64,000 nt of DNA from an uncultured Microbacterium sp. (lineage in GTDB: Bacteria; Actinomycetota; Actinomycetes; Actinomycetales; Microbacteriaceae). The notes below the pieces were generated by a model that ran no database searches, had not been told where the DNA came from, and saw only the letters and a program-made list of their open reading frames with translations. The stretch covers positions 186,001 through 250,000 of the forward strand of contig CAJYHN010000012.1 in assembly GCA_913774665.1 (NCBI GenBank), read 5' to 3'. Position numbers and translations under genes: made by a program. Shown one piece after another: positions 33,759-62,638 of the stretch. Positions within the stretch are counted from its first letter, which is position 1; each line of letters starts with the position of its first letter.

Positions 33759-35354
33759 TCAGCCCATCCGCGCGTCTTCGCGGCGCGCGGCCCGCAGCTC
33801 CTCGGCCAAGTGCCGCGCCCCCCGCACGGCGATCGCGACGCTGGTGAGCGTCGGATTCATCGTGTTCGCGGTGGGGATGAGCGCGTTGCCGCCGACGACG
33901 AGGTTCTCGAAGCCCCACACGCGCGAGTACGGATCGGCGACCGAGGTCGCGGGGTCGGTCCCCGCGCGCATCGTCCCCATGAAGTGCAGGCTCGACCCGT
34001 TGGGCAGCAGACGCGGCTCGGCGATGAAGGTGCCGAGCGCCCCGCCCGCGCGACGCAGGCGCGTCGTGGCCTCGGCGATCTCGGCCTCCTCGCGCTCGGT
34101 CAGGGCGTACTCGATCGTGAAGTTCGGCATGCCGCGGTAGTCGAGCTCGTCGTCGCTGAAGACGGCACCGTCTTCGACGCGAGGGAACTTGCGCGTGCCG
34201 AAGCCCATGTTCACGTATCCCCACCGGTTCGCGGCCGCGGGGTGATCCACGGGGAGCGGGAACGGCGGAGTCTCGGCGTACATGATCTGCGCCGAGTAGG
34301 GGTGACCGGGCTCCGAGAACGGGATGCGGTTGACCGCGGCCACGGGGTCGGCGGGGTTGGTGGCGCGACGGGCGAGCTCGGCCTCCAGCTCGTCGTCGGA
34401 CACCAGCGCGCTCATGCGGTCGGCGTCGAGTGCGACCGTGCTGATCACGACGTGATGTTCGGTGAGGTAGCGCCCGAGGGGAGCGGGACGGATGCCGGAG
34501 GCCCACAGCAACTGCGGAGAGCGGAACGCGTCGGCGGCCACCACCACGGCATCCGCCTCGACGAACGACTCCTCGCGGGTGCGGAGGTCTTCGACGACCA
34601 GACCGCGCACGCGCGCGCCGTCGTGCTCGACGCGGCGGACCAGGGTGAGATCGCGCAGTTCGAAGCGAGACGCGGTGTCGGTCCCGGGCTCGATGAGCGG
34701 TCCGAGCACGGTGTCGGCTCCGGCCCAGCGCATGGAGCCGTCGGGCTGCGGATCGCCCGCGACCGGCAGGGTGCTCACGCCGTAGCCCTCGGGGAGCTCG
34801 GCCCCGAACTCGCGGTCGAGCAGGGTGCGGATCGCCGCCCCGACGGGTGAGTCCGAGAACGCCGCGCTCTGCTTGTGCAGCAGGCCCTCGGCGGTGGAGA
34901 CGAGGTCTTCCCACTCGTCGTCGGCGATGAAGTCGAGCTTCTCGCTGAACGCCGGGCGCGGGATGGCGCAGGTCCAGTGCGCGCCCTGCCCGCCCACGTT
35001 GGTCGCGGCGGCGGCGGCCGGGAAGTCCGACGCGTGCGCGGAGCCCTCGCCACCGAAGTCGAGCAGGTGCGTGCCCTGGCGTGCGGTGAACATGCCCTCG
35101 ACGACCGCCCCCGCGAGGATGCCGAGGGAGTCGCGGTACTGCCCCGCCTGCGGGCCCTGCGACCTCTCGCGGGCGCGCGCCTTCTCGTCGGGATCGACGA
35201 TGTTGCGAACGCTCTCACCCGGTCGCGGGGTCACCTGGGGTCCGGCTTCGAACATGATGACGCGCGCCTCGGGCAACGCCTCGAGCAGGAGTCTGGCGTA
35301 CGTCGACCCGATGGGCCCGCTGCCGACGACGGCGATGGTGGGGGTGGCGGTCAT
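33759..35354 (-). CDS. GMC-family FAD oxidoreductase (pyranose/C-glycoside 3-oxidase-like)
   Basis: A 531-residue flavoenzyme of the glucose-methanol-choline family, closest in pattern to pyranose 2-oxidases and the C-glycoside 3-oxidase CarA described from Microbacterium. The FAD motif VVGSGPIGSTYARLL starts at residue 10. NVGGQGAHWTCAIPRP (about 125) is the flavin loop also seen in the second GMC protein. The active-site His lies in SSLHFMGTMR (about 457) and the Asn in NTMNPTLTSVAIAVRGAR (about 500). It would oxidise a sugar secondary hydroxyl, the first step of C-glycoside cleavage. It is followed upstream by an MFS gene on the same strand. Confidence 0.85.
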   Translation of the reverse strand: MTATPTIAVVGSGPIGSTYARLLLEALPEARVIMFEAGPQVTPRPGESVRNIVDPDEKARARERSQGPQAGQYRDSLGILAGAVVEGMFTARQGTHLLDFGGEGSAHASDFPAAAAATNVGGQGAHWTCAIPRPAFSEKLDFIADDEWEDLVSTAEGLLHKQSAAFSDSPVGAAIRTLLDREFGAELPEGYGVSTLPVAGDPQPDGSMRWAGADTVLGPLIEPGTDTASRFELRDLTLVRRVEHDGARVRGLVVEDLRTREESFVEADAVVVAADAFRSPQLLWASGIRPAPLGRYLTEHHVVISTVALDADRMSALVSDDELEAELARRATNPADPVAAVNRIPFSEPGHPYSAQIMYAETPPFPLPVDHPAAANRWGYVNMGFGTRKFPRVEDGAVFSDDELDYRGMPNFTIEYALTEREEAEIAEATTRLRRAGGALGTFIAEPRLLPNGSSLHFMGTMRAGTDPATSVADPYSRVWGFENLVVGGNALIPTANTMNPTLTSVAIAVRGARHLAEELRAARREDARMG

Positions 35355-35375
35355 GATCTCTCCTTCGAGAACCGA

Positions 35376-36869
35376 TCAGGCGGGTTGACGGGCGGGGGCG
35401 GATGCCGCGGGCGCGGGCGTCTCGTCCGAGAGGCGTCCCGCGGGCAGCAGCAGGGCGATGACCACTCCGCAGACGTAGACCGCGGCGAGGCCCAGGAAGA
35501 CCGGGGCGAAGACGTCGTGGTAGATCAGGCCGACCTGGTCCTGCACCGCGACGGGCGCCGAGCGGACCGCCCCGGGGGTGAGGGTCGCGGCATCCAGCCC
35601 CGCGGGCAGAGCGGCGGCCACGGCGAATCCGACCAGCCCGCCCACCACCGCGGTCCCCACCGCGGCGCCGATCTGGCGCACGAGATTCGTCGTCGCGGTG
35701 ACAGCTCCGAGGTCGTCGCGAGAGGCCGCGCTCTGCACGACCGCGAAGATGAGGTTCGTGAAGGCGCCGGTGCCGATACCGACCGCGGCCATGACGACCA
35801 TCGGCACCCACAGCGGCATCCCCGCCGGCAGCAGACCCATCGCGGTCAGCCCCACGGCGGCAAGAGCGGTCCCCGCGACGGGGTACAGCCGGTAGCGACC
35901 CGAGCGGCTCACGATCCAGCCGGTGAGAAGGCTGCTCACCAGCATGCCGAGCACGGTCGCGATGGGCACCAGCCCCGAGACCGTGGCGGTCGTGCGGTAG
36001 GCCATCTGCACGTAGGTCGGCACGTAGGCGACCACCGAGAACAGGCCCGCGCCGACGACCAGGGAGAGCCCCAGGCAGACGAGGATCGTGCGATCGCGAA
36101 GGATGCGCGGGGGGAGGATCGGGGCGACGGCCCGCCGCTCGATGACGACGAGGGCCGCGACGCCGACGACCGCGGCCACCGCGCACGCGATCGCCACCGG
36201 GCGAAGAGCGTCGTCGCCGATCCAGGTCACGGCGAGGATGAGGGACAGCAGCGACGCGGTGAAGACGATCGAACCCGGCACGTCGAAGCGCGGGTGCGCC
36301 CCGCCCGGGAGCCGCGGCACCGCCGCAAGGGTGAGCACGAGGGCGATGATCCCGACCGGGAGGTTGATCCAGAACACCCAGGGCCAGCTCCAGTAGTCGG
36401 TGATCAGACCGCCCACCACCGGTCCGACGACGATCGCCACCGGGAAGGCGGCACCGATGACCGCCATGTAGCGAGGGCGCTGGCGGGGACTCGTGACCCG
36501 GGCGACGATGGTCTGCGACATCAGCTGCAGCCCGGCGGAGCCGAGGCCCTGCAGCACGCGCGCGGCGATGAGCCAGCCGAGATCAGGCGCGAACCCGCAC
36601 GCGAGCGAGGCGGCGAGGAACAGCACGAGCGAGACGACGAAGACGCGGCGCGGGCCGATGACGTCGCCGAGCTTGCCGAGCACGGGCAGCATCGCGGTCG
36701 CGGCGAGCGTGTAGCCGACCATGATCCAGCTCATGTGCTCGAGCGCGCCGAGGTCGCCCGCGATCGTGGCGAGCGAGGTCGAGACGACCGTGTGGTCGAG
36801 CGCGCCGAGGAACGAGACGGACAGGAGGGCGGCGACGAGGATCCGCAGCCGCGCGGGAGAGAGAGTCAT
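35376..36869 (-). CDS. DHA2-type MFS transporter (14-TM)
   Basis: A 497-residue membrane protein of the drug:H+ antiporter-2 family. It opens RILVAALLSVSFLGALDHTVVSTSLATIAGDLG (motif D1), with motif A LGKLGDVIGPRRVF after TM2 and motif C around GAAFPVAIVVGPVVGG in TM5. About 14 hydrophobic segments and a 45-residue loop before the last span are visible. Its position next to the GMC oxidase suggests it moves an aromatic glycoside, aglycone or toxic intermediate, rather than acting as a general drug pump; that is inference. The ATG at 36869 lacks a strong ribosome site. Confidence 0.88.
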   Translation of the reverse strand: MTLSPARLRILVAALLSVSFLGALDHTVVSTSLATIAGDLGALEHMSWIMVGYTLAATAMLPVLGKLGDVIGPRRVFVVSLVLFLAASLACGFAPDLGWLIAARVLQGLGSAGLQLMSQTIVARVTSPRQRPRYMAVIGAAFPVAIVVGPVVGGLITDYWSWPWVFWINLPVGIIALVLTLAAVPRLPGGAHPRFDVPGSIVFTASLLSLILAVTWIGDDALRPVAIACAVAAVVGVAALVVIERRAVAPILPPRILRDRTILVCLGLSLVVGAGLFSVVAYVPTYVQMAYRTTATVSGLVPIATVLGMLVSSLLTGWIVSRSGRYRLYPVAGTALAAVGLTAMGLLPAGMPLWVPMVVMAAVGIGTGAFTNLIFAVVQSAASRDDLGAVTATTNLVRQIGAAVGTAVVGGLVGFAVAAALPAGLDAATLTPGAVRSAPVAVQDQVGLIYHDVFAPVFLGLAAVYVCGVVIALLLPAGRLSDETPAPAASAPARQPA

Positions 36870-37064
36870 GCGTGGGGCGCCCGTACGACCGGGCGATCGA
36901 CGCGACCGTGTGTGCCGCTCCGGCTCCCTCACCGGGCGAACGGACCTTTTCAGGCCCCGACGTCCCCCTCAGTATATCGAACTTATGTCGAAATAAAACA
37001 TTAGAGGTTCCCCGGTACGGCGCCGCGGTGTGGGCCTCCGTGCAGTGCCGGAGGCCCACCATCG
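36870..37064. promoter_or_regulatory. AT-richer promoter region of the MFS-GMC unit
   Basis: Holds an AT-rich stretch (36974-37010) with TATATCGAACTTATGTCGAAATAAAA. On the minus strand this contains CATAAG (36982-36987) and CTAATGT, words also found at 57.0 kb and, for CATAAG, at 62.7 kb. Exact promoter elements are not fixed. Confidence 0.45.
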
Positions 37065-37481
37065 TCAGGCGTCGGGCGCGAGGCCCAGCTGCGTGAGGAT
37101 GCCGAGCTCGTCACTGCTCCCCCATCGCTCGACGAGCTTGCCGTCCTCGAAGGAGCTGATCTGCAGGCCGCGGATCTTCACCGGCTTGCCCGTCGGCGCG
37201 TGACCACGGAACTCACCGGTCTGCGTGCCGGTCATGGTGTACGCGAACGCCACGGTGTCGTCGTCCGCGACGAGCTTTTCGACCTCGAGCGCCAGGTCGG
37301 GGAAGGCCGTTCGCAGCTCGCCGAAGAACGCCGCGTACCCCTTCGGACCGGGCACCTGGCCGGGCGCCGGGTCGTGATCGACGGAGTCGGGGGCGACGAG
37401 ATCGTCGAACGCGGCGAGGTTACCAGCGTTCACCGCCTCGCCGAATGCCTGCTGGGATGCGATGTTCTGCTCGCGCGTCAT
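37065..37481 (-). CDS. SnoaL-like ester cyclase family protein
   Basis: A 138-residue NTF2-fold protein of the SnoaL-like ester cyclase branch. Typical stretches are AFGEAVNAGNLAAFDDLVAPDSVDHDPAPGQVPGPKGYAAFFGELRTAFPDLALEVEKLVADDDTVAFAY and TGEFRGHAPTGKPVKIRGLQISSFEDGKLVERW. The conserved His in VDHDP and Asp/His pairs could serve in ring closure or dehydration. Such genes frequently lie near polyketide or aromatic pathways. It stands between the MFS promoter and the aromatic operon, all on the minus strand; 215 bases upstream hold nothing recognisable. Confidence 0.82.
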   Translation of the reverse strand: MTREQNIASQQAFGEAVNAGNLAAFDDLVAPDSVDHDPAPGQVPGPKGYAAFFGELRTAFPDLALEVEKLVADDDTVAFAYTMTGTQTGEFRGHAPTGKPVKIRGLQISSFEDGKLVERWGSSDELGILTQLGLAPDA

Positions 37482-37696
37482 TTCTCTCACCGTTTCCGCA
37501 CCTGCTCGGCGCCTGGGTTCGTGTGGCTGATTGCGAGCGACGGTACGGGGAGGTGGCGATGCGGGGCGGGGGCTTGCGCGGTGGCGTGCGGGGCGGGTGA
37601 AGAGAGCGGTGGGCGGGTGGGAGCCGGTGTCGGCCCGCTTCGTCGAGCAGAACTCGGTTGCTCCGCAGCATGTTCGACGTTCCGTATCCGGTGGTC

Positions 37697-38662
37697 TCAC
37701 CGCGCCCGCGACCGCACCCGGGCCCGCGGCACGGGCGGCGCCGCCACCCGCTCGCCGACCACGTTGACGATCTCGCCCACGCCCTCGATCACCAGGCGCA
37801 CCTCGTCGCCGGGTTCGAGCGGGCGCGGGTCGAGGCCGCCGCGGCGGCCCCACAGCTCGCCGAGGCAGCCGCCGTTTCCGACCGTGCCCGAGCCGAGCAC
37901 GTCGCCCGGCACGACGACGGAGTTCCGCGCGGCGTACATCACCAGCTCGGGGAACGGCCAGCCCATGTTCGACACGAGATCGTGGCCGATCAGCTCGCCG
38001 TTGATGAAGAGCTCCGCGCGCACGGCCAGGAAGCCCTCGTCATCGAGGAAGGGTTCGAGCTCGTCGGCGGTGACGATCCACGGGCCGAGGGTCATCGCGA
38101 AGTCCTTGCCCTTGGCCGGGCCTAACCGCACCTTCATCTCGCGCGACTGCAGATCGCGCGCCGACCAGTCGTTCATCACGGTGTAGCCGAAGATGTGGGT
38201 CGCCGCGGTCTCGGCATCCAGATTCTCTCCGTCCGACCCCGCGACCCCGCCGATGACCGCCGCGAGCTCGAGTTCGACGTCGAGGCGCTGCGTCTCGGGG
38301 ATCGCGACGACCTCACCCGTCGCCCGCACCGTGTGCGGGTTGGTGAAGTAGAAGGTGGGCGCGTCGTACCACTCGGGGACGACCTCGCTCTTGCCGTCGA
38401 CCGAGGCGCTCACACCCTCGACGTGCTCCTCGAAGGCGACGAAGTCACGGATCGAGGCGGGCACGAGCGGGGCGAGCAGACGCACCTGGGAGAGGGGTCG
38501 CGCGAGGGCCGGGTCGCGACGCGCGAACAGCGCGTGCGTCGCCGCGAGACCCTGCGCGAGCACCTCGGCCACCCGCAGCCCGTCGGGGAACGGCACCACC
38601 GTGTCACCGTCGACGAAGCCCTCGCCGACGTCGGCGCCGTCGGCCCACCGCGCGATCCTCAT
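37697..38662 (-). CDS. Fumarylacetoacetate hydrolase family protein (I)
   Basis: A 321-residue FAH-superfamily enzyme, which hydrolyses, hydrates, isomerises or decarboxylates diketo acids produced by aromatic ring cleavage. The N-terminal cap (about 1-75) is followed by IRDFVAFEEHVEGV and the metal site in LDVELELAAVIGGVAG with further acidic residues, FGYTVMNDWSARDLQ and KGKDFAMTLGPWIVT. The LGSGTVGNGGCLGELWGRRG loop is typical. Last gene of the aromatic operon; its start overlaps the stop of the amidohydrolase gene (ATGA). Substrate is inferred to be the ring-fission product or its derivative. Confidence 0.88.
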   Translation of the reverse strand: MRIARWADGADVGEGFVDGDTVVPFPDGLRVAEVLAQGLAATHALFARRDPALARPLSQVRLLAPLVPASIRDFVAFEEHVEGVSASVDGKSEVVPEWYDAPTFYFTNPHTVRATGEVVAIPETQRLDVELELAAVIGGVAGSDGENLDAETAATHIFGYTVMNDWSARDLQSREMKVRLGPAKGKDFAMTLGPWIVTADELEPFLDDEGFLAVRAELFINGELIGHDLVSNMGWPFPELVMYAARNSVVVPGDVLGSGTVGNGGCLGELWGRRGGLDPRPLEPGDEVRLVIEGVGEIVNVVGERVAAPPVPRARVRSRAR

Positions 38663-39684
38663 GCGTGCACCCGCGTGCGCAGCAGCTCGTCGGCGTTGCG
38701 GCCCAGGATGCCGTCGACCTGCGCCTCGGCCAGTCCCGCGCCCCGCACGAAGGCGACGGGGTCGTCGAGGCCCATGTCGAACGGGAAGTCACTGCCCAGC
38801 AGCACCCGGTCGGCGCCGGCGACCTCGACGAGCCAGCGCAGCGCCCGCTCATCGTGCACGACGGTGTCGAACCACAGTCTCGACAGGTATGTCGAGGGGG
38901 CGTGCGCGCAGCCGTGCGCCTCGGGACGCACCTTCCACGCACGGTCCGACCGACCGATCGCGGTCGGCAGGTATCCGCCGCCGTGGGCGGCGATCAGGCG
39001 GAGTCCCGGATGCCGATCGAGCACGCCCGCGAAGATGAGGTGCGACAGCGCGACGGCGTTCTCGGTGGGCTGGCCGACCGTGTTCGAGAGGTAGAACCGG
39101 TCGAGACGCTCGTCGAGCGAGCAGCCGAAGGGGTGCAGGAACACCACCGCCCGCAGCTCGGCCGCCCGCGCCCAGAAGGGCTCGAGCCGCTCGTCGCTGA
39201 GCTCGACGTCCTGCGCGAACGACGAGATCTCCACGCCCGCGAGCCCGCGACCGAGCACGGCGTCGTCGAGGGCGTCGACGACGAGGTGCGGGTGCTGCAG
39301 CGGCACGGTGCCCAGACCCACGAGCCGGTCGGGCGCCTGCGCGACGTGCTCGGCGATGAGGCGGTTGGCCTCCCCGGTCGCCCAGGTGGCCAGGCCCTCG
39401 TTGGCCCAGGGATAGAAGTGGTTCGGCGAGGGGCTCACCCACTGCCGCTCGACCCCCTGGTCGTCCATCGCGGCCAGGCGCGCGCCGACCGAGGTCAGGC
39501 GCGGGAAGCGCTCGCCGATCATGCGCCCCGAGGCCTGGATGCTCGCCAGGCCGTTGCGGCGCAGCTCGAGGTCGGCCGCGGCCTGCACCTCGTCGGGGAC
39601 GCGGCGTTCGACCTCGGCGTGCAGCCCCGGCATGAGCAGGTGCGCGTGGACGTCGGTGACGCCCCGCCCCTCGACCGCGCTCAT
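38659..39684 (-). CDS. Amidohydrolase family protein (ACMSD/gamma-resorcylate decarboxylase-like)
   Basis: A 341-residue metal-dependent TIM-barrel enzyme of the amidohydrolase-2 group, which holds nonoxidative decarboxylases (ACMSD, gamma-resorcylate) and some hydrolases. The metal motif DVHAHLL has His13 and His15. Later ligands are His in FLHPFG and in RLIAAHGGGYLP, and Asp in LLGSDFPFDMG. RWVSPSPNHFYPWANE resembles the substrate loop of ACMSD-type enzymes. It is coupled by ATGA overlaps to the monooxygenase upstream and the FAH gene downstream. A decarboxylation or hydrolysis step in aglycone breakdown is likely. Confidence 0.85.
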   Translation of the reverse strand: MSAVEGRGVTDVHAHLLMPGLHAEVERRVPDEVQAAADLELRRNGLASIQASGRMIGERFPRLTSVGARLAAMDDQGVERQWVSPSPNHFYPWANEGLATWATGEANRLIAEHVAQAPDRLVGLGTVPLQHPHLVVDALDDAVLGRGLAGVEISSFAQDVELSDERLEPFWARAAELRAVVFLHPFGCSLDERLDRFYLSNTVGQPTENAVALSHLIFAGVLDRHPGLRLIAAHGGGYLPTAIGRSDRAWKVRPEAHGCAHAPSTYLSRLWFDTVVHDERALRWLVEVAGADRVLLGSDFPFDMGLDDPVAFVRGAGLAEAQVDGILGRNADELLRTRVHA

Positions 39685-40814
39685 GCGCGGGCCGCCGTCA
39701 GCTGCGCGACGCCGAACATCAGGCCGCCCATGTCGGCGTCCCGGACGCCGTCGAGCTGCCACTGGCCGAGCTGCACCGACGCATCGACGATCGCCTTCGC
39801 CCGCGCCACGCGGCGCTCGTGGAAGGCGTCCCAGAGCGCCTGGTCGACGGCATCCCGCTGCACGAGGAGCTCGCTGAGCACGGCGGCGTCCTCCAGACCC
39901 TGGGCCGCACCCTGCGCGATCGTCGGCGGGCAGCTGTGGGCGGCGTCGCCGATGATCACGACGCGCCCGCGGTTCCACGGCGCGTCGACGAGGTGACGGG
40001 TGAACCACGTGTAGTTGGCGTCGGCGCCGGCCTCGATGTCGGAGCGGATGTGGTTCCACGGCCCGTCGTACGCGCGGGACTGCTCCACCATGATGCGCCG
40101 CGCCTCCTCGGGCGTGGCCTGCGAGCGGTCCTGCGCCGCCTCGACGAGGAAGGCGTACATCGTGTCGTCGCCGGTCGGCGTGTAGCCGGCGATGTACATC
40201 GGGCCGCCGTAGTACAGCTCGCTGCGGTCGACGTCGGGCGGCAGCGACACGAAGGTGCGCCAGATGCCCATGCCCGTCTGCTCGGGGGAGACATGGATGC
40301 CGATCAGCTCGCGCACCGCGGAGTGCAGGCCGTCGGCGCCGACGAGCAGGTCGAACGAACCCGCGGGTTCGCCGTCGACCTCCACGGCGACCGCGTCGTC
40401 GGTCTGCGAGACGCCGGTCACGCGCGTCCCGAAGTGCACGCGCGCACCGTGGCGCTCGGCGGCGGCGAGAAGGATGCGGGCCAGGTCGGGGCGCGACATG
40501 CCCATCGTGGAGGGGTAGTCGGGGCCGCCGGTCTTCAGGTCGGGAAGGGCCGCGACCACGGGCGCGCCGGGTCCGGGGGCGCGGAGGTTGAGTCCCTCGA
40601 AGGCGTTGCCCGCGGCCGAGACCTCGTCCCAGACGCCGAGCTCGTCGAAGACGCGCAGGGCGTTGCCCTGCAGGGTGATGCCCGATCCGCGCGTCGACAG
40701 CGCGGGCTGGGCATCGTAGAGGTCGACCTCGACACCGGCTCTCGCGAGGAAGATGGCGGTGGCCAGGCCCGCGACGCCGGCTCCGGCGATCGCGACTTTC
40801 TGAACGGCTGTCAT
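39681..40814 (-). CDS. FAD-dependent aromatic monooxygenase (group A)
   Basis: A 377-residue flavoprotein hydroxylase of the p-hydroxybenzoate hydroxylase type, which uses NAD(P)H and oxygen to hydroxylate a phenolic ring. The FAD motif VAIAGAGVAGLATAIFLARAG is at 7-27, the DG motif sits within SFDLLVGADGLHSAVRE, and the GD motif is GRVVIIGDAAHSCPPTIAQGAAQGLEDA at about 280. The short C-terminus is typical of the smaller members such as salicylate- or flavonoid-type hydroxylases. It has AGAGG upstream of the ATG at 40814. It probably supplies the dihydroxylated ring for the extradiol dioxygenase of this operon. Confidence 0.9.
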   Translation of the reverse strand: MTAVQKVAIAGAGVAGLATAIFLARAGVEVDLYDAQPALSTRGSGITLQGNALRVFDELGVWDEVSAAGNAFEGLNLRAPGPGAPVVAALPDLKTGGPDYPSTMGMSRPDLARILLAAAERHGARVHFGTRVTGVSQTDDAVAVEVDGEPAGSFDLLVGADGLHSAVRELIGIHVSPEQTGMGIWRTFVSLPPDVDRSELYYGGPMYIAGYTPTGDDTMYAFLVEAAQDRSQATPEEARRIMVEQSRAYDGPWNHIRSDIEAGADANYTWFTRHLVDAPWNRGRVVIIGDAAHSCPPTIAQGAAQGLEDAAVLSELLVQRDAVDQALWDAFHERRVARAKAIVDASVQLGQWQLDGVRDADMGGLMFGVAQLTAARA

Positions 40815-40846
40815 GTCAGAACCTCTCTGTTCTGGGACGGGGGGGA

Positions 40847-42804: not shown

Positions 42805-42826
42805 TTTCCCCGATCGGGATCGACGC

Positions 42827-45873: not shown

Positions 45874-45942
45874 CGGAGACTAATGAACCATAGATGCGCG
45901 AAATTCGGCAGGTTCCGGCCTGTCCTGTGTGAGGATCGACGC

Positions 45943-50642: not shown

Positions 50643-50654
50643 GCCCACCCCGCG

Positions 50655-53567: not shown

Positions 53568-53579
53568 GGGGCTTGTCTC

Positions 53580-54362: not shown

Positions 54363-54388
54363 GGTCATTCCTTCGTTGTGGTGGTGGA

Positions 54389-55423: not shown

Positions 55424-55436
55424 GACGGAGGTCCTT

Positions 55437-56537
55437 TCAGGCCCGCACGGCGTGCGACAGGTGGGCATCGAGGGCGCGGCGGGCTTCGACGGCATCCGTG
55501 ATCATCCGGGAGCCGGCGGCCTCGGCGGCGGTGCGCTGGATGGCCTGCTCGCCGCGGATGATCTCGAAGGGGTTCTGCCAGTGGTTCCAGTGCCAGCCCT
55601 CGTACTCGCTCGACACCGCACCGCTGTAACCGTTCTCGACCAGCAGGGTGATGAGCTCGGCGACGGGAACCGACGGCTCGTTCCCGTTCTCGTCGATGCC
55701 GAAGAACTTGCCGTGCACGTGCTTCACCCACGGCATGATCTCGAGCCAGTCGTCGACGCGCGCGGGGCCGAACAGGCCGGTGCCGTTGATGCCGAAGTCG
55801 ATGCCGAGGTCGGGGCGGCCGTGCTGATGAGCGAGGCCGATGAACCGACCGAAGCGCTGGCCGTGGTCGGTCTGGTCGGCGGGCGGGCCCTGCTCGTAGT
55901 ACTCGTCCCACAGGGCGACGACGGCGGACAGCAGCTCCTCCGAGGCTCCGCGGCGGCGATACGCCTCGATGAGCGAGGGGGCGAAGCCGGTGACGGTGGC
56001 GCCCCAGTCCATCGTGAACCCGAGGAAGGGGGACCCGACCTGCTCATACCTGTCGCGCAGCGCGAGGATGCGCGGGTGGGAGGCGTACTGGTCGGCGTGC
56101 ACCTCGAGGGCGAGCGTGACGCCGTACTCCTCGGCGATCGGGGCGAGAGCCTCCATCGAGTCGGGCGTGAGCGAGATCTGCACCCGCGCGATGGGGAAGC
56201 CGAGCTTCGCGGCCGCTGCGATCTGCTTGCGCATGTAGGCGATCAGCTCGTCCTGGTCCATCAGCCGGTCGGGGCGCAGACCGATGTCTGCGTTCACCGC
56301 GAGAGAGGTGCGCACCAGGCCCACCTCGTCGATCAGATCGGAGAATCGCCCGGCGAAGTGGTCGTCGATCTCGGGGAATCCGCGGAAGCTCGAGAAACCG
56401 ATGATCTCGAGCCCCGGACCGAAGCCCTCGGCCGCGGTCTTGCGGATCAGCTGGTCGAGGTCGTACTCGCGGCCGTGGAACGCGCGGGGGAAGCTGTAGA
56501 GCGTGACGCCCTGGAGGGGCGTGCCGAGCTCGGTCAT
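55437..56537 (-). CDS. TIM-barrel C-glycoside deglycosidase alpha-subunit-like protein, copy 3
   Basis: A 366-residue AP-endonuclease-2-type barrel. It begins TPLQGVTLYSFPRAFHGREYDLDQLIRKTAAEGFGPGLEIIGFSSFRGFPE. Likely metal ligands are Glu in LALEVHADQYASHP, Asp in LGFTMDWGATVTGF, His in VKHVHGKFFGID and Glu in AVSSEYEGWHWNHW. An insertion around 200-245 (YYEQGPPADQTDHGQRFGRFIG) would cover the active site. Its start overlaps the stop of the DUF6379 gene at 56534 (ATGA), the clearest alpha/beta pair in the window and the best candidate for a CarBC-type enzyme. Confidence 0.8.
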   Translation of the reverse strand: MTELGTPLQGVTLYSFPRAFHGREYDLDQLIRKTAAEGFGPGLEIIGFSSFRGFPEIDDHFAGRFSDLIDEVGLVRTSLAVNADIGLRPDRLMDQDELIAYMRKQIAAAAKLGFPIARVQISLTPDSMEALAPIAEEYGVTLALEVHADQYASHPRILALRDRYEQVGSPFLGFTMDWGATVTGFAPSLIEAYRRRGASEELLSAVVALWDEYYEQGPPADQTDHGQRFGRFIGLAHQHGRPDLGIDFGINGTGLFGPARVDDWLEIMPWVKHVHGKFFGIDENGNEPSVPVAELITLLVENGYSGAVSSEYEGWHWNHWQNPFEIIRGEQAIQRTAAEAAGSRMITDAVEARRALDAHLSHAVRA

Positions 56538-56941
56538 GCGCGGGCCTCCTCGACCTGGCGGACGGTCATGGTCTTGGTGTCGTGCTCCTCGATGTGGAGC
56601 ACCTGGTCGTCGGCGATGATGATGTAGGGGATGAAGAGCTCGAGGTCGACGCGCACCTCGTGCTCCCCGGCATCCGCCCCGATTTCTCCCGACAGCACGG
56701 CCGAGTCGGTGGGGAACCACCACTGCTCGGTGTTCGTCTTCATGTCGGCGAACGTGAACTCCTCGCCGTTCATCTGCCAGCGCAGCGAGGCAGCGGGAGC
56801 CTCGACGCCGTCGATGGTGAGCCTCGCGCCCGAGATGCACGATGCCGGCAGAGCGCGGTACCAGGGCAGCCGCACGTCCACCGATGTCCGCCCGTCGTGG
56901 GCGCTGAGGGTGCCCTGCTCGATGATGCGATCCGGGATCAC
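56534..56941 (-). CDS. C-glycoside deglycosidase beta-subunit-like protein (DUF6379 type), copy 3
   Basis: A 135-residue beta-sandwich protein. IPDRIIEQGTLSAHDGRTSVDVRLPWYRALPASCISGARLTIDG, EFTFADMKTNTEQWWFPTDSAVL and VRVDLELFIPYIIIADDQVLHIEEHDTKTM align with copies 1 and 2. I chose the GTG at 56941 because GAGGAGG lies five bases upstream; the open frame to 57097 crosses the promoter region and the stop of the GMC gene. It overlaps the alpha-subunit gene at 56537. The roughly 90 bases upstream are AT-richer with CTAATGT and CATAAG words, so an internal promoter is likely. Confidence 0.82.
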   Translation of the reverse strand: MIPDRIIEQGTLSAHDGRTSVDVRLPWYRALPASCISGARLTIDGVEAPAASLRWQMNGEEFTFADMKTNTEQWWFPTDSAVLSGEIGADAGEHEVRVDLELFIPYIIIADDQVLHIEEHDTKTMTVRQVEEARA

Positions 56942-57032
56942 GATGACCTCCTCGTCGGCGCGACCGGAGTCGCGGACCACTTTGTCATGATTTCTACACT
57001 CTAATGTCTGTTTCCTGCATAAGCAAGAGAAC

Positions 57033-58580
57033 TCAGGCGGATGCCGACTCCGTCGCGACCTGCTCGCGAGCGAGAACGGCAGCGATCTTGCGCGCACCCC
57101 GCACGGCGAGCGCCACCGACGTCAACGTCGGATTGCACGCCGTCGCGGTCGGGATCACGCCGTTGCCCGCGACGAAGAGATCGGGCACGCCCCACACCTC
57201 GCTGTCGATGTCGCACACGCTCGTGCCGTCGTCGGCGACGCCCATGCGCGTCGAGCCCTGGTAGTGCAGAGACGACCCGAGCGGAAGGGTGAAGGGGCGA
57301 TCGCCGACCGGGTCGCCGACGGCCTCGGCCAGACGCACGATCTCCTGACGAGCCCGTTCCACCACCTCGCGATCGTGATCGGTGAGGCGGTAGTGGATGC
57401 GGGGAGCCGGCATCCCGTAGCCGTCGGCGTGCTCCGCATCGAAGGCGACGCGGTCGTCCGCCCGCAGGTCTTTCGCGCAGAACAACCCGAGTCCCACGAT
57501 CGAGCCCGGAACCACCGGGTCGTCGTCGGCCAGGGGGATCGGCGAGGCGTCGAGCTGCATGATCTGCCCGTGGAACGGCATGTCGTCGGTGAACGGGACC
57601 CAGCTCACCCCGCTGTACTCCGCCAGCCCCGCGGTGGGGTCGTCGGCGTCGAGCAGGGGCATGTTCCGCAGCCGCGAGGCGAACACCACCTGCGCCTGGT
57701 CGTTCAGGTACCGCCCGAGAGCCTCCGGGCGCACGCCCGACGCCCACAGCAGCTGCGGGGTGCGCAGCGCGTCGGCCGCGACCACCACGAAGCGCGCCGC
57801 GATGGTGTGCTCGTCGCCCGAACGCAGGTCGCGCGCGACGACGCCCGATGCGCGGCCGCCCTCCACGAGCACCCGCACAGCCAGGGTCTCGTCGAAGAGC
57901 GCGAAGCGCGGGTTCTCGCGCGTGACTTCTCCCAGCACGACGTCCGACCCCGACCAGACCAGGCGACCGTCGTCGCGCCGGTGGGCGGCCAGCGGCATCC
58001 GCTGCACCTTCGTCGCATCGACGCGGCCTTCGTCGACCGCGGCCGAGAGGCGCTCGCGCACGATCGCCCCGAAGGGCGCGGAGTCGAAGGCGTTCGTCGT
58101 GACGCCCAGCAGACGATCGGCCTCGTCGAGGAGCTCGTCGAGGTCGGGAACGAAGGCGATGCGCTCGCTGTCGTTCGGACGCGGGCACGCGCCCGTCCAG
58201 TGCGCGGCCATGCCGCCCACGTTGCTCGACATCGCGACGACCGGGAGACCGTCCTCCCCCTCGAACGCGTACCCCTCCTCGAGCAGGAACGTGCCGGGGC
58301 GCGCCCCGCGCACGCCGGCCTTGGCGGCGCCGGGGCTGGCGACCTTCTCGCCGCGCTCGCCCGGGCCCTCCGAGGCCACCTGCGCGCGGGCCCGCTCGGC
58401 CGGGTCGGCGATGTTCTTCACGTGCGCACCGGGAGGATTCGACACCGTCGGGCCGACCTCGAGCATCGCGATCGTCGCCTCCGGCGCTCGCTCCGACAGG
58501 ATGCGCGCGTAGGCCGAGCCGGTCGGCCCGCTCCCGACGATGACGACGTCGACCGAGGTGGGGTACTGCCGGGCGCTCAT
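57033..58580 (-). CDS. GMC-family FAD oxidoreductase (C-glycoside 3-oxidase, CarA-like)
   Basis: A 515-residue flavoenzyme. The FAD motif VVIVGSGPTGSAYARIL is at 12-28. NVGGMAAHWTGACPRPND (about 125-145) is the flavin loop, and FVVVAADALRTPQLLWASG is a family hallmark. The catalytic His lies in SSLHYQGSTRMG (about 435) and Asn in ACNPTLTSVALAVRGAR (about 482). It shares the pattern of pyranose oxidase and of Microbacterium CarA, which oxidise C3 (or C2) of sugars and pass electrons to oxygen or a quinone. It lies upstream of an alpha/beta deglycosidase pair and overlaps the barrel gene at 58577 (ATGA), so it is the best candidate for the first catabolic step. Confidence 0.87.
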   Translation of the reverse strand: MSARQYPTSVDVVIVGSGPTGSAYARILSERAPEATIAMLEVGPTVSNPPGAHVKNIADPAERARAQVASEGPGERGEKVASPGAAKAGVRGARPGTFLLEEGYAFEGEDGLPVVAMSSNVGGMAAHWTGACPRPNDSERIAFVPDLDELLDEADRLLGVTTNAFDSAPFGAIVRERLSAAVDEGRVDATKVQRMPLAAHRRDDGRLVWSGSDVVLGEVTRENPRFALFDETLAVRVLVEGGRASGVVARDLRSGDEHTIAARFVVVAADALRTPQLLWASGVRPEALGRYLNDQAQVVFASRLRNMPLLDADDPTAGLAEYSGVSWVPFTDDMPFHGQIMQLDASPIPLADDDPVVPGSIVGLGLFCAKDLRADDRVAFDAEHADGYGMPAPRIHYRLTDHDREVVERARQEIVRLAEAVGDPVGDRPFTLPLGSSLHYQGSTRMGVADDGTSVCDIDSEVWGVPDLFVAGNGVIPTATACNPTLTSVALAVRGARKIAAVLAREQVATESASA

Positions 58581-59371
58581 GCGGCGCGCGCGATCTCGAC
58601 GACGTGGGCGACGGATGCCGCCGACGCGGTGGTCGGGTAGTACTCGAGGCCCACGGGGCCGTCGTAGCCGCTGTCGCGCAGCAGTCGGAAGCGCTCGTTC
58701 CAGTCGAGCTCTCCCGTGCCGGGCTCGCCGCGACCGGGGGCGTCGGCGAGCTGCACATAGTGGATGAGGTCGCCGGCGTTCGCCAGCTCGGCCTCCATGT
58801 CCTCACCCTCGACGGCCGAGTGATAGATGTCGTAGAGCACGCCGAACTGCGGCGAGGCGACGCCACGGGCGACGTAGACCCCCTCGGCCGTGCGATCCAG
58901 CAGAGAACCGGGGTGGTCGACCCGGACGTTCACGGGCTCGAGCACGAGACCGACGGCCGACCCCTCGATCTGGGCGACCGCCGTGGTGTAGATCTCGATG
59001 AGCTTGTCGAGCTGCACCTGCCGCTTCCACCCGCCGAAGCCGGTGCCGCTGCCCACGACGATGCGGGGGCATCCGAGGTCGTAGGCGATCGCCACGCCCT
59101 CGTCGAGCTTGCGGAAGAACTCGCTGTGGTCCCACGGCGGGATCATGAACTGCGTGCGGGGCTCGGCCAGCTGCGCCGTGAGCTGCACGCCGGTCTCTTC
59201 GAGCGCCGCCTTCAGCGCCGGCAGGTCCTTGGGCGTCGCCGGAGCGTCGACCCCCGTGGGACCCCACATCTCGACGGCGTCGAAGCCCGCGGCCGCCGCC
59301 GCGCGCACGCGGTCGTGATAGTCACCGGCCTCGGTGAAGAGGAGTTCGATGTTGGGAGCGAGTCGGTACAT
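58577..59371 (-). CDS. Hydroxypyruvate isomerase-like TIM barrel
   Basis: A 264-residue compact AP-endonuclease-2-type barrel of the hydroxypyruvate isomerase (Hyi)-like branch. It starts YRLAPNIELLFTEAGDYHDRVRAAAAAGFDAVEMWGPTGVD. Metal-site segments are LVLEPVNVRVDHPGSLL, GVLYDIYHSAVEGED, IHYVQLADAPGRGEPGTGELDW and VGLEYYPTTAS. The LADAPGRxEPGTGExxW stretch is diagnostic of Hyi-like enzymes, here perhaps acting on a sugar-derived keto-acid or ketose. It is downstream of the ABC permeases (94-base gap) and overlaps the GMC gene. GAAAGGA precedes the ATG at 59371. Confidence 0.88.
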   Translation of the reverse strand: MYRLAPNIELLFTEAGDYHDRVRAAAAAGFDAVEMWGPTGVDAPATPKDLPALKAALEETGVQLTAQLAEPRTQFMIPPWDHSEFFRKLDEGVAIAYDLGCPRIVVGSGTGFGGWKRQVQLDKLIEIYTTAVAQIEGSAVGLVLEPVNVRVDHPGSLLDRTAEGVYVARGVASPQFGVLYDIYHSAVEGEDMEAELANAGDLIHYVQLADAPGRGEPGTGELDWNERFRLLRDSGYDGPVGLEYYPTTASAASVAHVVEIARAA

Positions 59372-59465
59372 GGGGTGTGTCCTTTCGACTGCGGGGCGCG
59401 ACGATCGACGGATGCCGCGCTTCGCGGCATCCATCTGGGCAGGCTCAGCCCGGGATAAGAGGGGC

Positions 59466-60302
59466 TCAGCCCTTCAGGCCGCCGGCGAAGCCCTGGATGA
59501 AGCGCTTCTGGGCGAAGAGGTAGAAGGCGAGGATCGGGACCATCGAGACGATGACGATCGCGAAGATCTGGTTCCACGCCGAGACCAGCGAGCCGATGTA
59601 GTAGTACATGGCGACCGGGAGGGTCTGGTTCGCGGAGCCGCCGAGGAAGATGAGCGACGTGAAGAAGTCGTTCCACACGATGAGTCCGGCGAGGATCGCG
59701 ACGGTTCCGGTCGCGGGCGACATCAGCGGGAGCACGATCCGGAAGAAGATCTGGGTGCGGCTGGCGCCGTCGATCGTCGCCGCTTCTTCGTACTCGGTCC
59801 CGAGCCCGCGGAAGAACCCCGCGTAGAGGAAGATCGCGAGCGGCAGGAGCATGCCGGTGTAGAGGACGATCATGCCCCAGGCCGAGCCGGTGAGCCCGAG
59901 CGAGCGCGCCCCGATGTACAGCGGCACGGTGCCCAGCTGCGTGGGCAGAACGATCGCCACGAGGAAGAGGTAGTAGACCACGCGGCTCCACCGACGCGTG
60001 CTGCGGGCGATCACGTAGCCGGTGAGCGAGCCGAGCAGAACCAGGAGCACGATGCTGCCGGCGGTGATGATGATGCTGTTGATCAGCCCCACCACGACGT
60101 TCGAGTTGCCGGTGGCGGTGAGCACCTTGAGGAAGTTGCCGAAATCGGGTGCGGTCGGCGGCGCCAGGGTCGACGAGGTGATGACCTCGCGGTCCGACTT
60201 CAGCGAGGTCGTGACCAAGAAGTAGAACGGCAGCAGGAACACGAGCGCGGCGATCCAGAACAGGAACTCGCGGAGCCCCGTGAGCTTGGTGTAGCGGAAC
60301 AT
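59466..60302 (-). CDS. Carbohydrate ABC transporter permease (MalG type)
   Basis: A 278-residue inner-membrane permease with six hydrophobic spans. It starts YTKLTGLREFLFWIAALVFLLPFYFLVTTSLKSDREV. The coupling loop has the EAA motif as YEEAATIDGASRTQIFFRIVLPLMSP, and the end QKRFIQGFAGGLKG is the standard MalG-type C-terminus. It lies one base after the MalF-type permease gene. No ATPase gene is present in the window, so a shared MsmX/MalK-type ATPase from elsewhere is required. Confidence 0.93.
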   Translation of the reverse strand: MFRYTKLTGLREFLFWIAALVFLLPFYFLVTTSLKSDREVITSSTLAPPTAPDFGNFLKVLTATGNSNVVVGLINSIIITAGSIVLLVLLGSLTGYVIARSTRRWSRVVYYLFLVAIVLPTQLGTVPLYIGARSLGLTGSAWGMIVLYTGMLLPLAIFLYAGFFRGLGTEYEEAATIDGASRTQIFFRIVLPLMSPATGTVAILAGLIVWNDFFTSLIFLGGSANQTLPVAMYYYIGSLVSAWNQIFAIVIVSMVPILAFYLFAQKRFIQGFAGGLKG

Positions 60303-60303
60303 G

Positions 60304-61278
60304 TCAGTTCTCCTCCGAACGATCGGCGGTGACGCGCTGCTGGATGACCGCGAAGACCAGGATGATGAGGGTCAGCAGCAGCGCCAGGGCGGCGCCGTAG
60401 CCGAAGTTGCCGAGAGCGAACGACTGCTTGTAGACCTGCGTCGCGAGCGTCTCGGTCGCCGCGGCCGGGCCGCCGCCGGTCAGCGCCATGATCTGATCGA
60501 ACACGCGCAGCCCGTTCACGAGCCCGAGGGTGGTCGCGATCGCGACGGCGGGGCGGATCGACGGCAACGTCACGTGCCAGAAGCGCTGCCACAGGTTGGC
60601 GCCGTCGATGGCCGCGGCCTCTTCGATCTCGACCGGGACGGCGGCGAGGCCCGCCATGTAGATCACCATCGAGAAGCCGATGTTCTGCCAGACCAGCACG
60701 ATGAGGATCGTCCAGATCGCCCACGTCGGGTCGGCGATCCAGGCGCGGGCCATCGAGTCCAGGCCGATCCCGCGCAGCACGAGGTTGAGCGGTCCGTTGA
60801 AGTCGAAGATGAACTTCCAGATGTACGACGTCGCCAGCGGGCTGAGCACGACAGGCATGAAGAAGAGCGTGCGCAGGATGTACCGGCTCTTCAGCCCGCG
60901 ATTGAGGCCGAGAGCGATCCCCAGCCCCAGGATGTTGCTGAGGATCACCGACCCGAAGGCGAGGAACAGCGTGTTCCACAGCGCCCCGATCTTCGTGGGG
61001 TCCTGGAAGATCCGCGTGAAGTTGTCGAGACCGATGAGCTGGAAGGCCCCGATGCCGGTCCAGTTCGTGAAGGCGAAGAAGCCACCGACGCTCGTGGCGA
61101 CGTAGTGGATGCCGAGGACGAAGAGGGTGCCGGGCAACGCCCACCACCAGTATCCGAATTTCAGCAGGCCCTTGCGGCGCGGGGCGGGGGCCGGACGGCG
61201 GCGCCCTCTGCGCGGGGGCAGGACGACTCGTTCGGTCTCGGTGGCGGCGACCTCGCCGGCTCGGAAGGTGGTGCTCAT
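60304..61278 (-). CDS. Carbohydrate ABC transporter permease (MalF type)
   Basis: A 324-residue permease. A 40-residue Arg/Pro-rich cytoplasmic start is followed by LLKFGYWWWALPGTLFVLGIHYVATSVGGFFAFTNWTG and five more spans. The EAA loop reads IEEAAAIDGANLWQRFWHVTLPSIRPA, and LTGGGPAAATETLATQVYKQSF is the conserved periplasmic-side loop. With the MalG-type partner it forms the membrane channel of a CUT1 sugar importer. It follows the binding-protein gene by 70 bases and is followed one base later by the second permease. Confidence 0.93.
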   Translation of the reverse strand: MSTTFRAGEVAATETERVVLPPRRGRRRPAPAPRRKGLLKFGYWWWALPGTLFVLGIHYVATSVGGFFAFTNWTGIGAFQLIGLDNFTRIFQDPTKIGALWNTLFLAFGSVILSNILGLGIALGLNRGLKSRYILRTLFFMPVVLSPLATSYIWKFIFDFNGPLNLVLRGIGLDSMARAWIADPTWAIWTILIVLVWQNIGFSMVIYMAGLAAVPVEIEEAAAIDGANLWQRFWHVTLPSIRPAVAIATTLGLVNGLRVFDQIMALTGGGPAAATETLATQVYKQSFALGNFGYGAALALLLTLIILVFAVIQQRVTADRSEEN

Positions 61279-61348
61279 GGCGTCCTCGTCATCCTCGAAG
61301 GGGTGCGGCTCCGCCGCCCGGGTCCAGGGGCCCGGGCGGCGGATTCAC

Positions 61349-62638
61349 TCAGTTGCCCCAGGCCGCATCCATGTTCTTCAGCACCTGGTCGATGCTGCTC
61401 TGGCCCGTCAGCAGGCCCTGGACACCCGTCGACAGCGCGTCGTACACGGCCGGGTTCGGCCAGACGTTCGAGGGCAGGGTGGTGTACGAGCCGTTCGAGA
61501 TGTCATCGACGACCTCGGAGTAGATCGTCTTGCTCAGGTCGAGGTTCTTGTACTCCGAGATGGGGAGCAGGCCCGAGGCCTCGTAGAACTTCTCCTGGGC
61601 GTCCGGGGTGGCGAGCCACTCGAGGAACTTCTTCGCCGCGTCCTTCTTCTGGGACTTCGCGTTGATGGATGCCGCGTAGTTCGAGCTGGCGAGCACGAAG
61701 GGCTTGCCGCCGGTTGCGGGCGGGAAGGGCTGCACCTTGAAGTCGGCCTCCGCGGGAGCGGCCGCGGCGATCTCGACCGCCGAGCCCGAGGGGATGAAGC
61801 TTCCGACCGAGGTGCCCTGCGCGAGTCCGTTGGTGATGGCGTCGAAGCCGCCGCCCTCGGCGCCGGCCTGGAAGCAGCCCTTGTCCTTGAGGTCGATGAT
61901 GGTCTGCAGCGTGTCGGCCCAGCCCTTGCTCTGGGCGAAGGTGGTCTTGCCCTCGGCGCGCTCGGTGTTGAAGTTCGGGTCCGTTGCGTAGACGCGGGTC
62001 GCCGCGATGCCCTGAGCGGTGAGACCGGCGTTCGGGGCGGCGGCGCCGGCGATGGCGATCATCGACTTGCCGTCGCCCGCGAGCTTCGCGCACTCGGCGT
62101 AGAAGTCGTTCATGGTGGTGGGCCAGCTCGTGATCCCGTTCATGCCGGCTGTGCCCATGCTGGCGACGACGGCACCGATGGTGAAGTCCAACGGCTGGCC
62201 GTACGTCTTGCCGTCGAGCTCGAAGAGCGTGTCGCTCCCGGTCGGCACGAGCGAGGTCGCCGTGTCGCCGAGCGGTTCGAAGAACCCGGCCTGGGCGAGG
62301 GGGATCAGACCGCGCGAGTCACCGGCACCGGGTGCGGTGATGATGACGTCGGAAGCATTGCCCGCCTGCAGCTGCGTGCGGATGGTCTCCCCGTACTTGT
62401 CGTTCGGGGTCGGGTTCGAGGTGATGGTGACGCCGGGATTCGCCGCCATGTACTCCTTGGCGAGCGTCTCGTACGGGCTCTCGAGGTTGTTGGAGGTGGC
62501 GAAGGTGAAGGTGAAGGAGTTCGAATCGCCCCCGGCGTCTCCCGAGCCGGAGCCGGAGCAGCCGGCGAGGACGAGAGCGGCGGTGACGGGAAGAGCGAGA
62601 AGACCTGCGATCCGTGTGACACGGCGATGCTGAGTCAT
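61349..62638 (-). CDS. Extracellular solute-binding lipoprotein of a CUT1 ABC importer
   Basis: A 429-residue family 1 binding protein. The signal peptide RIAGLLALPVTAALVLAGC has the lipobox Cys27, and a Gly/Ser linker follows. FTFTFATSNNLESPYETLAKEYMAANPGVTITSNPTPNDKYGETIRTQLQAGNASDVIITAPG is the typical ligand-pocket N-lobe, and KKDAAKKFLEWLATPDAQEKFYEASGLLPI the late helix. It determines specificity of the importer; the ligand may be the glycoside or an oligosaccharide (inference). It is the first gene of the minus-strand block running to 50927 and is divergent from the LysR gene, with paired CATAAG words between them. Confidence 0.93.
   Translation of the reverse strand: MTQHRRVTRIAGLLALPVTAALVLAGCSGSGSGDAGGDSNSFTFTFATSNNLESPYETLAKEYMAANPGVTITSNPTPNDKYGETIRTQLQAGNASDVIITAPGAGDSRGLIPLAQAGFFEPLGDTATSLVPTGSDTLFELDGKTYGQPLDFTIGAVVASMGTAGMNGITSWPTTMNDFYAECAKLAGDGKSMIAIAGAAAPNAGLTAQGIAATRVYATDPNFNTERAEGKTTFAQSKGWADTLQTIIDLKDKGCFQAGAEGGGFDAITNGLAQGTSVGSFIPSGSAVEIAAAAPAEADFKVQPFPPATGGKPFVLASSNYAASINAKSQKKDAAKKFLEWLATPDAQEKFYEASGLLPISEYKNLDLSKTIYSEVVDDISNGSYTTLPSNVWPNPAVYDALSTGVQGLLTGQSSIDQVLKNMDAAWGN

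Follow-up and report, generated by a model that had tools for sequence, protein, structure and literature searches.

C-glycosides resist ordinary glycosidases, and both their degraders in soil and on plants and the fate of the aglycone are still little known. The closest described systems, CarA/CarBC of Microbacterium and PurA/PurBC of Paenarthrobacter (soil C-glycoside pathways), both from Actinomycetota, combine a flavin adenine dinucleotide (FAD)-dependent GMC-type oxidase with an alpha/beta metal-dependent C-C lyase, the C-glycoside deglycosidase (CGD). According to the accessible parts of the published accounts each of them has one oxidase and one pair, whereas in the Microbacterium locus presented here five CGD-like units and two oxidases are linked to a ring-cleavage operon. 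The locus was analysed in a stretch of 64,000 nucleotides (C12:186001-250000, referred to as the window) of a Microbacterium genome of 3.58 Mb in 14 contigs; its small subunits are named s1 to s3 and its barrel proteins b1 to b6 (Table 1). We consider it a module for the catabolism of plant C-glycosides, C-glucosyl flavonoids being the most likely ones, in which s1/b1 presumably is a paralogous metalloenzyme of alpha/beta type whose active site has been rebuilt, and assign this reading a probability of about 0.8.

The arrangement of b4 and b5 adjoining the oxidase gene GMC_B is also found in the AgCGD1/AgCGD2 cluster of Arthrobacter globiformis and in the PsG3Ox cluster of Pseudarthrobacter siccitolerans, AgCGD2 being the orthologue of b4. 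In their accessible parts both accounts name two pairs, located beside PsG3Ox in the latter case (PMC10646112), whereas the genomes of both species (L102, L134) carry s1/b1 as well. In the accessible part of the account of Microbacterium sp. 5-2b a second PuCGD-like product was not found.

The single-chain C-glucosyl deglycosidase of Microbacterium testaceum (8QRZ, 8UN2) resembles one of two fusion proteins encoded beyond the window (fusion 2), fusion 1 being a separate second fusion related to the s2/b4 type; our literature search for the solved M. testaceum enzyme turned up an oxidase paper only. The CGD pair of Deinococcus aerius has also been solved (8QVC), and a C-glucosyl deglycosidase cluster of this species, known to us from reference lists, was reportedly described in J Mol Biol in 2024. 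The related plasmid cluster of Deinococcus aetherius likewise has a GMC oxidase, an importer and a dioxygenase, but in the stretch viewed one annotated CGD pair, with the canonical His and Glu, instead of several units.

Concerning the aglycone, the fde system of Herbaspirillum and the ifc system of Variovorax employ a flavin monooxygenase and a glyoxalase-fold dioxygenase on the A ring, a likeness to the window operon by enzyme class alone. Ring opening by such enzymes is known for naringenin and isoflavones from the accessible parts of two reports (PMC11069340, PMC11303751), the first of which describes cupin enzymes for ifc, whereas the operon proteins scanned with Pfam included no cupin. 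A literature search for flavonoid catabolism in Microbacterium found no paper.

The kind of cluster is already known, and the s1/b1 subfamily is its new part. Not found in print, in a search that left the subscription literature largely uncovered so that part of this may be published, were the s1/b1 subfamily in which both catalytic residues are exchanged, the presence of CGDB in several copies or not at all, and the association with ring cleavage in two phyla.

Canonical pairs, fusions and oxidases

Genes were called and annotated by analysis of open reading frames (ORFs) and of the GC content at third codon positions together with Pfam and NCBIfam scans. All components listed in the original prediction were located, namely two GMC oxidases, three DUF6379-type small proteins, seven xylose-isomerase-like barrels (starting at 47708, 48715, 49671, 50927, 54389, 55437 and 58577), two Gfo/Idh/MocA oxidoreductases, a CUT1 importer consisting of two permeases and a binding protein (59466-62638), a ROK and a LysR regulator and a ring-cleavage operon (37065-43843).

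CGD beta subunits were assigned by the CGDB family (PF19906, cut-off 27.6 bits), whose solved members are listed as DUF6379, and CGD alpha subunits by the metal ligands E147, D179, H269, K271 and E305 and the catalytic residues H149 and E307. A comparison of the three small proteins with the DUF6379 family did not refute their predicted membership, s2 (59 bits) and s3 (62.8 bits) exceeding the PF19906 cut-off and s1, although under it, being related by sequence and fold. In the loci that were also used for b1 (see below), the metal ligands and the catalytic His and Glu are kept in 61/61 homologues of b4 and 58/58 homologues of b5, two b4 and three b5 hits shorter than 80% of the query being excluded from the residue counts. 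None of the CGD proteins matched a named NCBIfam model at an expect value (E) of 1e-3.

Two stretches of about 100 residues of AgCGD2 (7dnm) are identical to the b4 region of A. globiformis NBRC 12137. AgCGD2 cleaves 3-keto C-glycosides and, among the compounds tested, accepted the C8-glycoside alone according to the accessible part of its description (PMC8563793). At position 249, where Ala or Gly has been reported for C6-acting enzymes in the sources as far as accessible, all 61 homologues of b4 carry Met, while Gly was found in 57 and Ala in one of the 58 homologues of b5. Based on the AgCGD2 likeness of b4 and on the states of residue 249, s2/b4 is probably a C8-type and s3/b5 a C6-type deglycosidase, which would agree with the predicted use of several substrate types.

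A PF19906 search of the own genome returned four matches, s1 being missed by the model. Two of them are located beyond the window end and represent natural beta-alpha fusions, fusion 1 (L005:5340-6815, equivalent to window positions 67339-68814; 491 amino acids) and, directly beside it, fusion 2 (L005:6825-8126, equivalent to 68824-70125; 433 amino acids). Both exceed the PF19906 cut-off, while the barrel model scores over its cut-off in fusion 2 and slightly under it in fusion 1 (27.9 of 31.1 bits). Fusion 2 matches the M. testaceum enzyme (8qrz) over its full length with 965 bits, and the idea that the single-chain fusions are new was therefore rejected. The alpha half of fusion 1 is AgCGD2-like (427 bits) and 54% identical to b4, its beta half 45% identical to s2. 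Since fusion 1 joins an s2-like and a b4-like half, s2 and b4 are regarded as partners despite the intervening SnoaL_4 gene. The tree places fusion 2 in a group with the Deinococcus enzyme, which is unsure because of the long branches.

GMC_B shows full-length similarity to PsG3Ox (7qf8; residues 1-512, 814 bits), a characterised glycoside 3-oxidase. Its next match was 7dve (785 bits), which the PDB lists under another oxidase name and which we take to be CarA of M. trichothecenolyticum. GMC_A, with 8qve (363 bits), 7dve (337 bits) and 7qf8 (314 bits) as PDB matches, belongs to the same group as the glycoside 3-oxidases and is more distant.

The remodelled pair s1/b1

The proteins s1 and b1, whose genes overlap by four bases, both score below the cut-offs of their Pfam families (s1 against PF19906: 16.3 bits, E 0.0087, cut-off 27.6; b1 against the barrel model: 19.8 bits, cut-off 31.1). 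According to Foldseek searches of AlphaFold models, however, all 16 PDB matches of s1 at E <= 0.001 (mean predicted local distance difference test value, pLDDT, of 86) were CGD beta chains or a CGD fusion, and the first 16 places for b1 (mean pLDDT 89.6) were taken by CGD chains with the AgCGD2 alpha chain 7dnm_A on top. Together with the sequence match to 8qvc_B (E 3.8e-10) the result for s1 led us to reject that s1 is unrelated to CGDB. Compared with the other four CGD alphas of its own genome b1 has an identity of 23-26%.

A contig scan with the b1 alignment confirmed 85 relatives, the best 80 of which were kept; some of their genomes are shared with the genus survey described below. In 80/80 loci s1 is located at most 400 bp from b1, on the same strand in 64 and divergently in 16. 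All five metal ligands are kept in 80/80 loci, down to about 50% identity, whereas every one of them has Gln at position 149 and Gly at position 307 instead of the canonical His and Glu. Since H269 and K271 lie inside one of the two b1 search patterns these counts are partly selected, the other positions being outside the patterns, and the seven residue states were identical in 30/30 genus b1 loci obtained from a whole-protein search. Further states that are fixed or nearly fixed in b1 and not the main state in b4 or b5 include Gln in place of Ser124, which contacts the sugar in AgCGD2 according to the accessible part of the source, Glu49, Glu310 (79/81, including the b1 of the window) and two Arg in the aglycone-side loop.

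All 14 b1 rows entered in the tree fall into a single group with full support. Owing to a warning of the tree program about possible attraction between the long branches of b1 and fusion 2, the order of the clades was disregarded. Relatives of b1 were found across Microbacteriaceae and Micrococcaceae.

Judged by sequence and modelled fold, s1/b1 is related to the CGDs, always paired, and a remodelled subfamily. Because His149 and Glu307 are replaced in all 80 loci, it is unsafe to call it a C-glycoside deglycosidase. The three parallel deglycosidases of the original prediction are supported for the two canonical pairs s2/b4 and s3/b5 but not, as stated, for s1/b1, and the number of CGD-like units has to be raised from three to five, two of them being the fusions outside the window. 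Most likely s1/b1 acts on a different keto-glycoside, or with a different acid/base arrangement, than the known deglycosidases. Both residues believed to drive C-C cleavage have been exchanged naturally in this pair, and the exchange is conserved over two bacterial families beside canonical paralogues. The pair therefore lends itself to comparisons that bear on the proposed mechanism, and it may have a new activity.

Conservation of the module and its link to ring cleavage

Within the genus, 44 of the 198 genomes surveyed contain PF19906, with three copies in four genomes, four in 25, five in 14 and six in one; one or two copies never occurred and 154 genomes had none. These copy numbers are soft, as the model misses s1 in the genome of the window and a contig break may create or delete a match. 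In the class, CGDB is rare (5/394 genomes with three to five copies each). Among the 44 CGDB-positive genomes of the genus b1 is present at full length in 39, in pieces in two and missing in three, and it is absent in the other 154; the genomes with b1 missing or in pieces include the fragmented drafts G044, G166 and G019, and G090, which is rated 68% complete. Relatives of GMC_A with about 70% identity or more were detected in 44/44 CGDB-positive genomes, although incomplete or split in three or more of these, and one CGDB-negative genome with a completeness rating of 72% contains a fragment. An interpretation of the three pairs as a strain-specific expansion was rejected on account of the occurrence of the module in 44/198 genus genomes and many named genera. 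The same gene arrangement in dozens of named genomes also shows that it is not due to chance.

The dioxygenase of the ring-cleavage operon (E <= 1e-60) was found in 65 of the 198 genus genomes, comprising 44/44 CGDB-positive and 21/154 CGDB-negative ones (Fisher p 2.5e-28, treating the genomes as independent and ignoring kinship). In the 12 CGDB-positive genomes consisting of a single contig, the best dioxygenase match is located at most 45 kb from every CGDB match among those listed. Of the 80 b1 loci, 54 have at least three ring-cleavage genes in their flanks and 69 a further CGD alpha; contig ends cut off several of the remaining 11.

A plasmid search with b5 yielded 16 records, 15 of them listed, and one with the dioxygenase 48 records, of which the 12 listed are mostly annotated just as catechol 2,3-dioxygenase or VOC protein. 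On a plasmid of D. aetherius, genes for a binding protein, two permeases, a CGD alpha and beta subunit, a GMC oxidase, a dioxygenase (65% identical), a cyclase, an FAA hydrolase (41%), a prolyl oligopeptidase and two flavoproteins stand in a row. This is a smaller version of the cluster and lends independent support, from one record, to the linkage of deglycosylation and ring cleavage. That one locus combines import, oxidation of the sugar, C-glycoside deglycosidases and the opening of aromatic rings, broadly as originally proposed, is supported by this plasmid row and by the dioxygenase in 44/44 CGDB-positive genomes.

As a side observation, the plasmid L137 of Arthrobacter sp. NicSoilB11, typed as conjugative, carries a set of GMC oxidase, DUF6379 and barrel genes with an alpha-L-rhamnosidase and a GH3 enzyme as neighbours. 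This could indicate transfer of the trait and the use of rhamnosylated C-glycosides. Microbacterium-like copies of the cluster are also present on contigs labelled Planococcus (L084) and Stenotrophomonas (L112), the label of the former probably being wrong.

Further out from the fusions, matches to pcaC, pcaD, pcaB, pcaG, pcaH, a PcaR/PobR-type regulator and 4-hydroxybenzoate hydroxylase (pobA) were detected. Those to pcaC, pcaG and pcaH exceed the equivalog cut-offs, while pobA scores over its subfamily cut-off (504 vs 351 bits) and under the equivalog cut-off.

Proposed pathway and alternative readings

From these genes we infer the following order of reactions. The glycoside would be taken up by the CUT1 importer, perhaps also by the MFS carrier, and its sugar oxidised by the GMC oxidases, in the case of GMC_B at C3. 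The metal-dependent heterodimers s2/b4 (C8-type) and s3/b5 (C6-type) and the two single-chain versions outside the window would then eliminate the aglycone, leaving 2-hydroxy-3-keto-glucal, which may be hydrated by the other barrels, and the resulting 3-keto-glucose could be reduced to glucose by a Gfo/Idh/MocA enzyme. Such a sequence of oxidation, elimination, hydration and reduction has been proposed for similar operons, the evidence for hydration being preliminary in the accessible part of the report (PMC10628242). The aglycone ring is predicted to be opened by the flavin monooxygenase and the extradiol dioxygenase, and the FAA-hydrolase, cyclase and amidohydrolase enzymes may deliver 4-hydroxybenzoate or protocatechuate to the neighbouring pca/pobA genes. 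A possible route from import to ring cleavage within one conserved module makes the pathway testable in vivo in a genus with many cultured strains.

Several points weigh against this reading of the locus. The dioxygenase is not specific to C-glycosides, as it also occurs in the 21 CGDB-negative genomes; the ring-cleavage enzymes match broad families, so that the aglycone is not fixed by their sequences. The window cyclase had no match in the Deinococcus cluster at 1e-8, the monooxygenase is just 32% identical to its best counterpart there, and the matches to pcaD, pcaB and the pca regulator are under equivalog or subfamily cut-offs. On the sugar side, the homology of GMC_A does not fix the position it would oxidise, the hydratase role of the partnerless barrels and the reductase role of Gfo2 are suggested by analogy, and the C6/C8 labels depend on one residue plus, for b4, on a relative.

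For s1/b1 we tentatively propose a new type of heterodimeric keto-glycoside enzyme, which would have kept the CGD fold, partner and metal site while the His base and the Glu helper were exchanged for Gln and Gly and new residues appeared at the sugar site, at position 49 and in the loop. It could catalyse a reaction other than the canonical C-C elimination. One example would be the interconversion of 2-keto and 3-keto glycosides, by which 2-keto products that are dead ends could be rescued and in which carboxylates bound to the metal would serve as acid and base, like those of ketose epimerases; another would be the elimination of an acidic or non-glucose glycoside. The shared fold and metal ligands, the beta partner in every locus and the position in the same cluster would fit three ordinary C-glycoside deglycosidases differing in substrate, with s1/b1 using another base or a metal-bound water. 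Ala mutants of PuCGD are indeed not fully dead, retaining 10.4% (base) and 49.8% (Glu) of wild-type activity, but those of MiCGD fall to 1.8% and 1.9% according to the accessible part of the same study (PMC8563793), and the corresponding His mutant of the eliminase AtOGE is inactive in the accessible part of another (PMC10628242). Taking furthermore into account that both residues are replaced in 80/80 loci and kept in all eight distinct solved CGD alphas among the matches listed, and that b1 differs in additional conserved residues of the sugar site and the aglycone-side loop, it seems rather unlikely that s1/b1 is an ordinary deglycosidase.

A non-catalytic s1/b1, i.e. a degenerate or regulatory relative binding keto-glycosides or other subunits, would agree with the ratios of non-synonymous to synonymous substitutions (dN/dS), which in five of the six loci compared (out of 80) were 0.21-0.35 for b1 and 0.23-0.38 for s1 vs 0.08-0.18 for s2, b4, b5 and s3. 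These values are about two to four times those of the canonical genes and speak against a tightly kept function; the exception is locus L061, where the canonical dS of 0.01-0.04 is too small and the ratios range from 0.11 to 1.07. The absence of b1, or its presence in pieces, in five CGDB-positive genomes, some of them drafts or incomplete, points in the same direction. However, the invariance of the five metal ligands, dN/dS values well below 1 and the spread over two families make a loss of catalysis improbable. That b1 is a recent pseudogene was rejected, all 14 rows of the tree falling into one supported group and dN/dS being below 1 in 6/6 loci. One-stop flags were raised for 6/39 full-length genus matches of b1; of the five fetched, four are free of stops in the aligned part and one has a stop near the C-terminal end. 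Finally, the module might serve mainly O-glycosides or anhydrosugars with C-glycoside cleavage as a secondary activity, as Gfo2 resembles levoglucosan dehydrogenase (NF052479), PurA acts on O-glycosides and 3-keto O-glycosides break down without an enzyme according to the accessible part of PMC12724307. Gfo2 remains far below the levoglucosan dehydrogenase cut-off, though (358 vs 650 bits), and O-glycosides that decay spontaneously would require neither the two canonical CGD pairs nor the two fusions, so that this use appears very unlikely. A catabolic module for plant C-glycosides remains our preferred reading.

Table 1. Genes of the cluster in the window with their predicted products and the matches used for assignment.
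Feature	Position	Strand	Evidence
GMC_A, putative glycoside/pyranose oxidase of POx/CGOx group	33759..35354	-	Pfam GMC_oxred; best PDB 8qve (listed as pyranose oxidase), 363 bits
MFS transporter	35376..36932	-	PF07690, 189 bits
SnoaL-like protein, start approximate	37065..37481	-	PF07366, 123 bits
FAA-hydrolase family protein 1	37697..38662	-	PF01557, 155 bits
Amidohydrolase 2 family protein, start approximate	38659..39684	-	PF04909, 138 bits
FAD_binding_3 aromatic monooxygenase, candidate aglycone ring hydroxylase, start approximate	39681..40814	-	PF01494, 149 bits; NF005313 (hypothetical protein subfamily) 390 bits, cut-off 372
Cyclase family protein	40847..41857	-	PF04199, 85 bits
FAA-hydrolase family protein 2	41836..42804	-	PF01557, 188 bits
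Type I extradiol dioxygenase (VOC fold), candidate aglycone ring-cleavage enzyme	42827..43843	-	PF00903; TIGR03211 249 bits, below cut-off 320
Gfo1, Gfo/Idh/MocA oxidoreductase	44787..45833	-	PF01408, 84 bits
ROK-family regulator	45883..47211	+	PF00480, 182 bits
s1, CGD-beta-like small subunit of remodelled pair	47298..47711	+	8qvc_B E 3.8e-10; AlphaFold and Foldseek
b1, CGD-alpha-like barrel	47708..48718	+	7dnm_A E 8.2e-18; Foldseek rank 1 7dnm_A, TM (template modelling) 0.83
b2, barrel without beta partner, candidate keto-sugar enzyme	48715..49674	+	PF01261, 64 bits
b2b, barrel without beta partner, candidate keto-sugar enzyme	49671..50642	+	PF01261, 65 bits
b3, barrel without beta partner, adjoins Gfo2, start approximate	50927..51931	-	PF01261, 132 bits
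Gfo2, Gfo/Idh/MocA, related to levoglucosan dehydrogenase, candidate 3-keto-glucose reductase, start approximate	51964..53154	-	NF052479 358 bits, below cut-off 650
s2, CGD beta subunit, AgCarC2 type	53151..53567	-	PF19906 59 bits; 7dnm_B 183 bits
SnoaL_4 protein between s2 and b4, start approximate	53580..54368	-	PF13577, 61 bits
b4, CGD alpha subunit, AgCGD2 type, start approximate	54389..55423	-	PF01261
b5, CGD alpha subunit, Gly at 249, start approximate	55437..56537	-	PF01261
s3, CGD beta subunit paired with b5, start approximate	56534..56947	-	PF19906 62.8 bits; 7dnm_B E 1.5e-12
GMC_B, predicted glycoside 3-oxidase, PsG3Ox relative	57033..58580	-	7qf8 814 bits, 7dve 785 bits
b6, barrel without beta partner	58577..59434	-	PF01261, 133 bits
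Sugar ABC permease	59466..60302	-	PF00528
Sugar ABC permease	60304..61278	-	PF00528
Extracellular solute-binding protein of importer	61349..62638	-	PF01547, 98 bits; signal sequence at start
LysR-family regulator	62760..63803	+	PF00126 and PF03466

Read from the right, the minus strand carries the importer genes, b6, GMC_B, s3 with b5, b4, the SnoaL_4 gene, s2, Gfo2 and b3, and after the plus-strand genes ROK, s1, b1, b2 and b2b it continues with Gfo1, a gene without family, the extradiol dioxygenase, FAA hydrolase 2, the cyclase, the flavin monooxygenase, the amidohydrolase, FAA hydrolase 1, the SnoaL and MFS genes and GMC_A. The start of the binding protein at 62638 is likely the true one, an ATG preceding a lipoprotein-like signal there, while the longest ORF reaches 62818. 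The LysR gene sits just past this position, with which the originally predicted cluster ended, and the cluster extends at least 12 kb past the window.

Neither Pfam nor NCBIfam provided a match at 1e-3 for the family-less gene between the dioxygenase and Gfo1 (44068-44793, about 240 amino acids). Between the LysR gene and the fusions (L005:1978-4595) there are genes for another FAD_binding_3 monooxygenase, the second of the cluster, and for a GH39-like protein. A tRNA-Gly gene, a possible mark of an insertion edge, is located about 6 kb left of the cluster (27304-27375).

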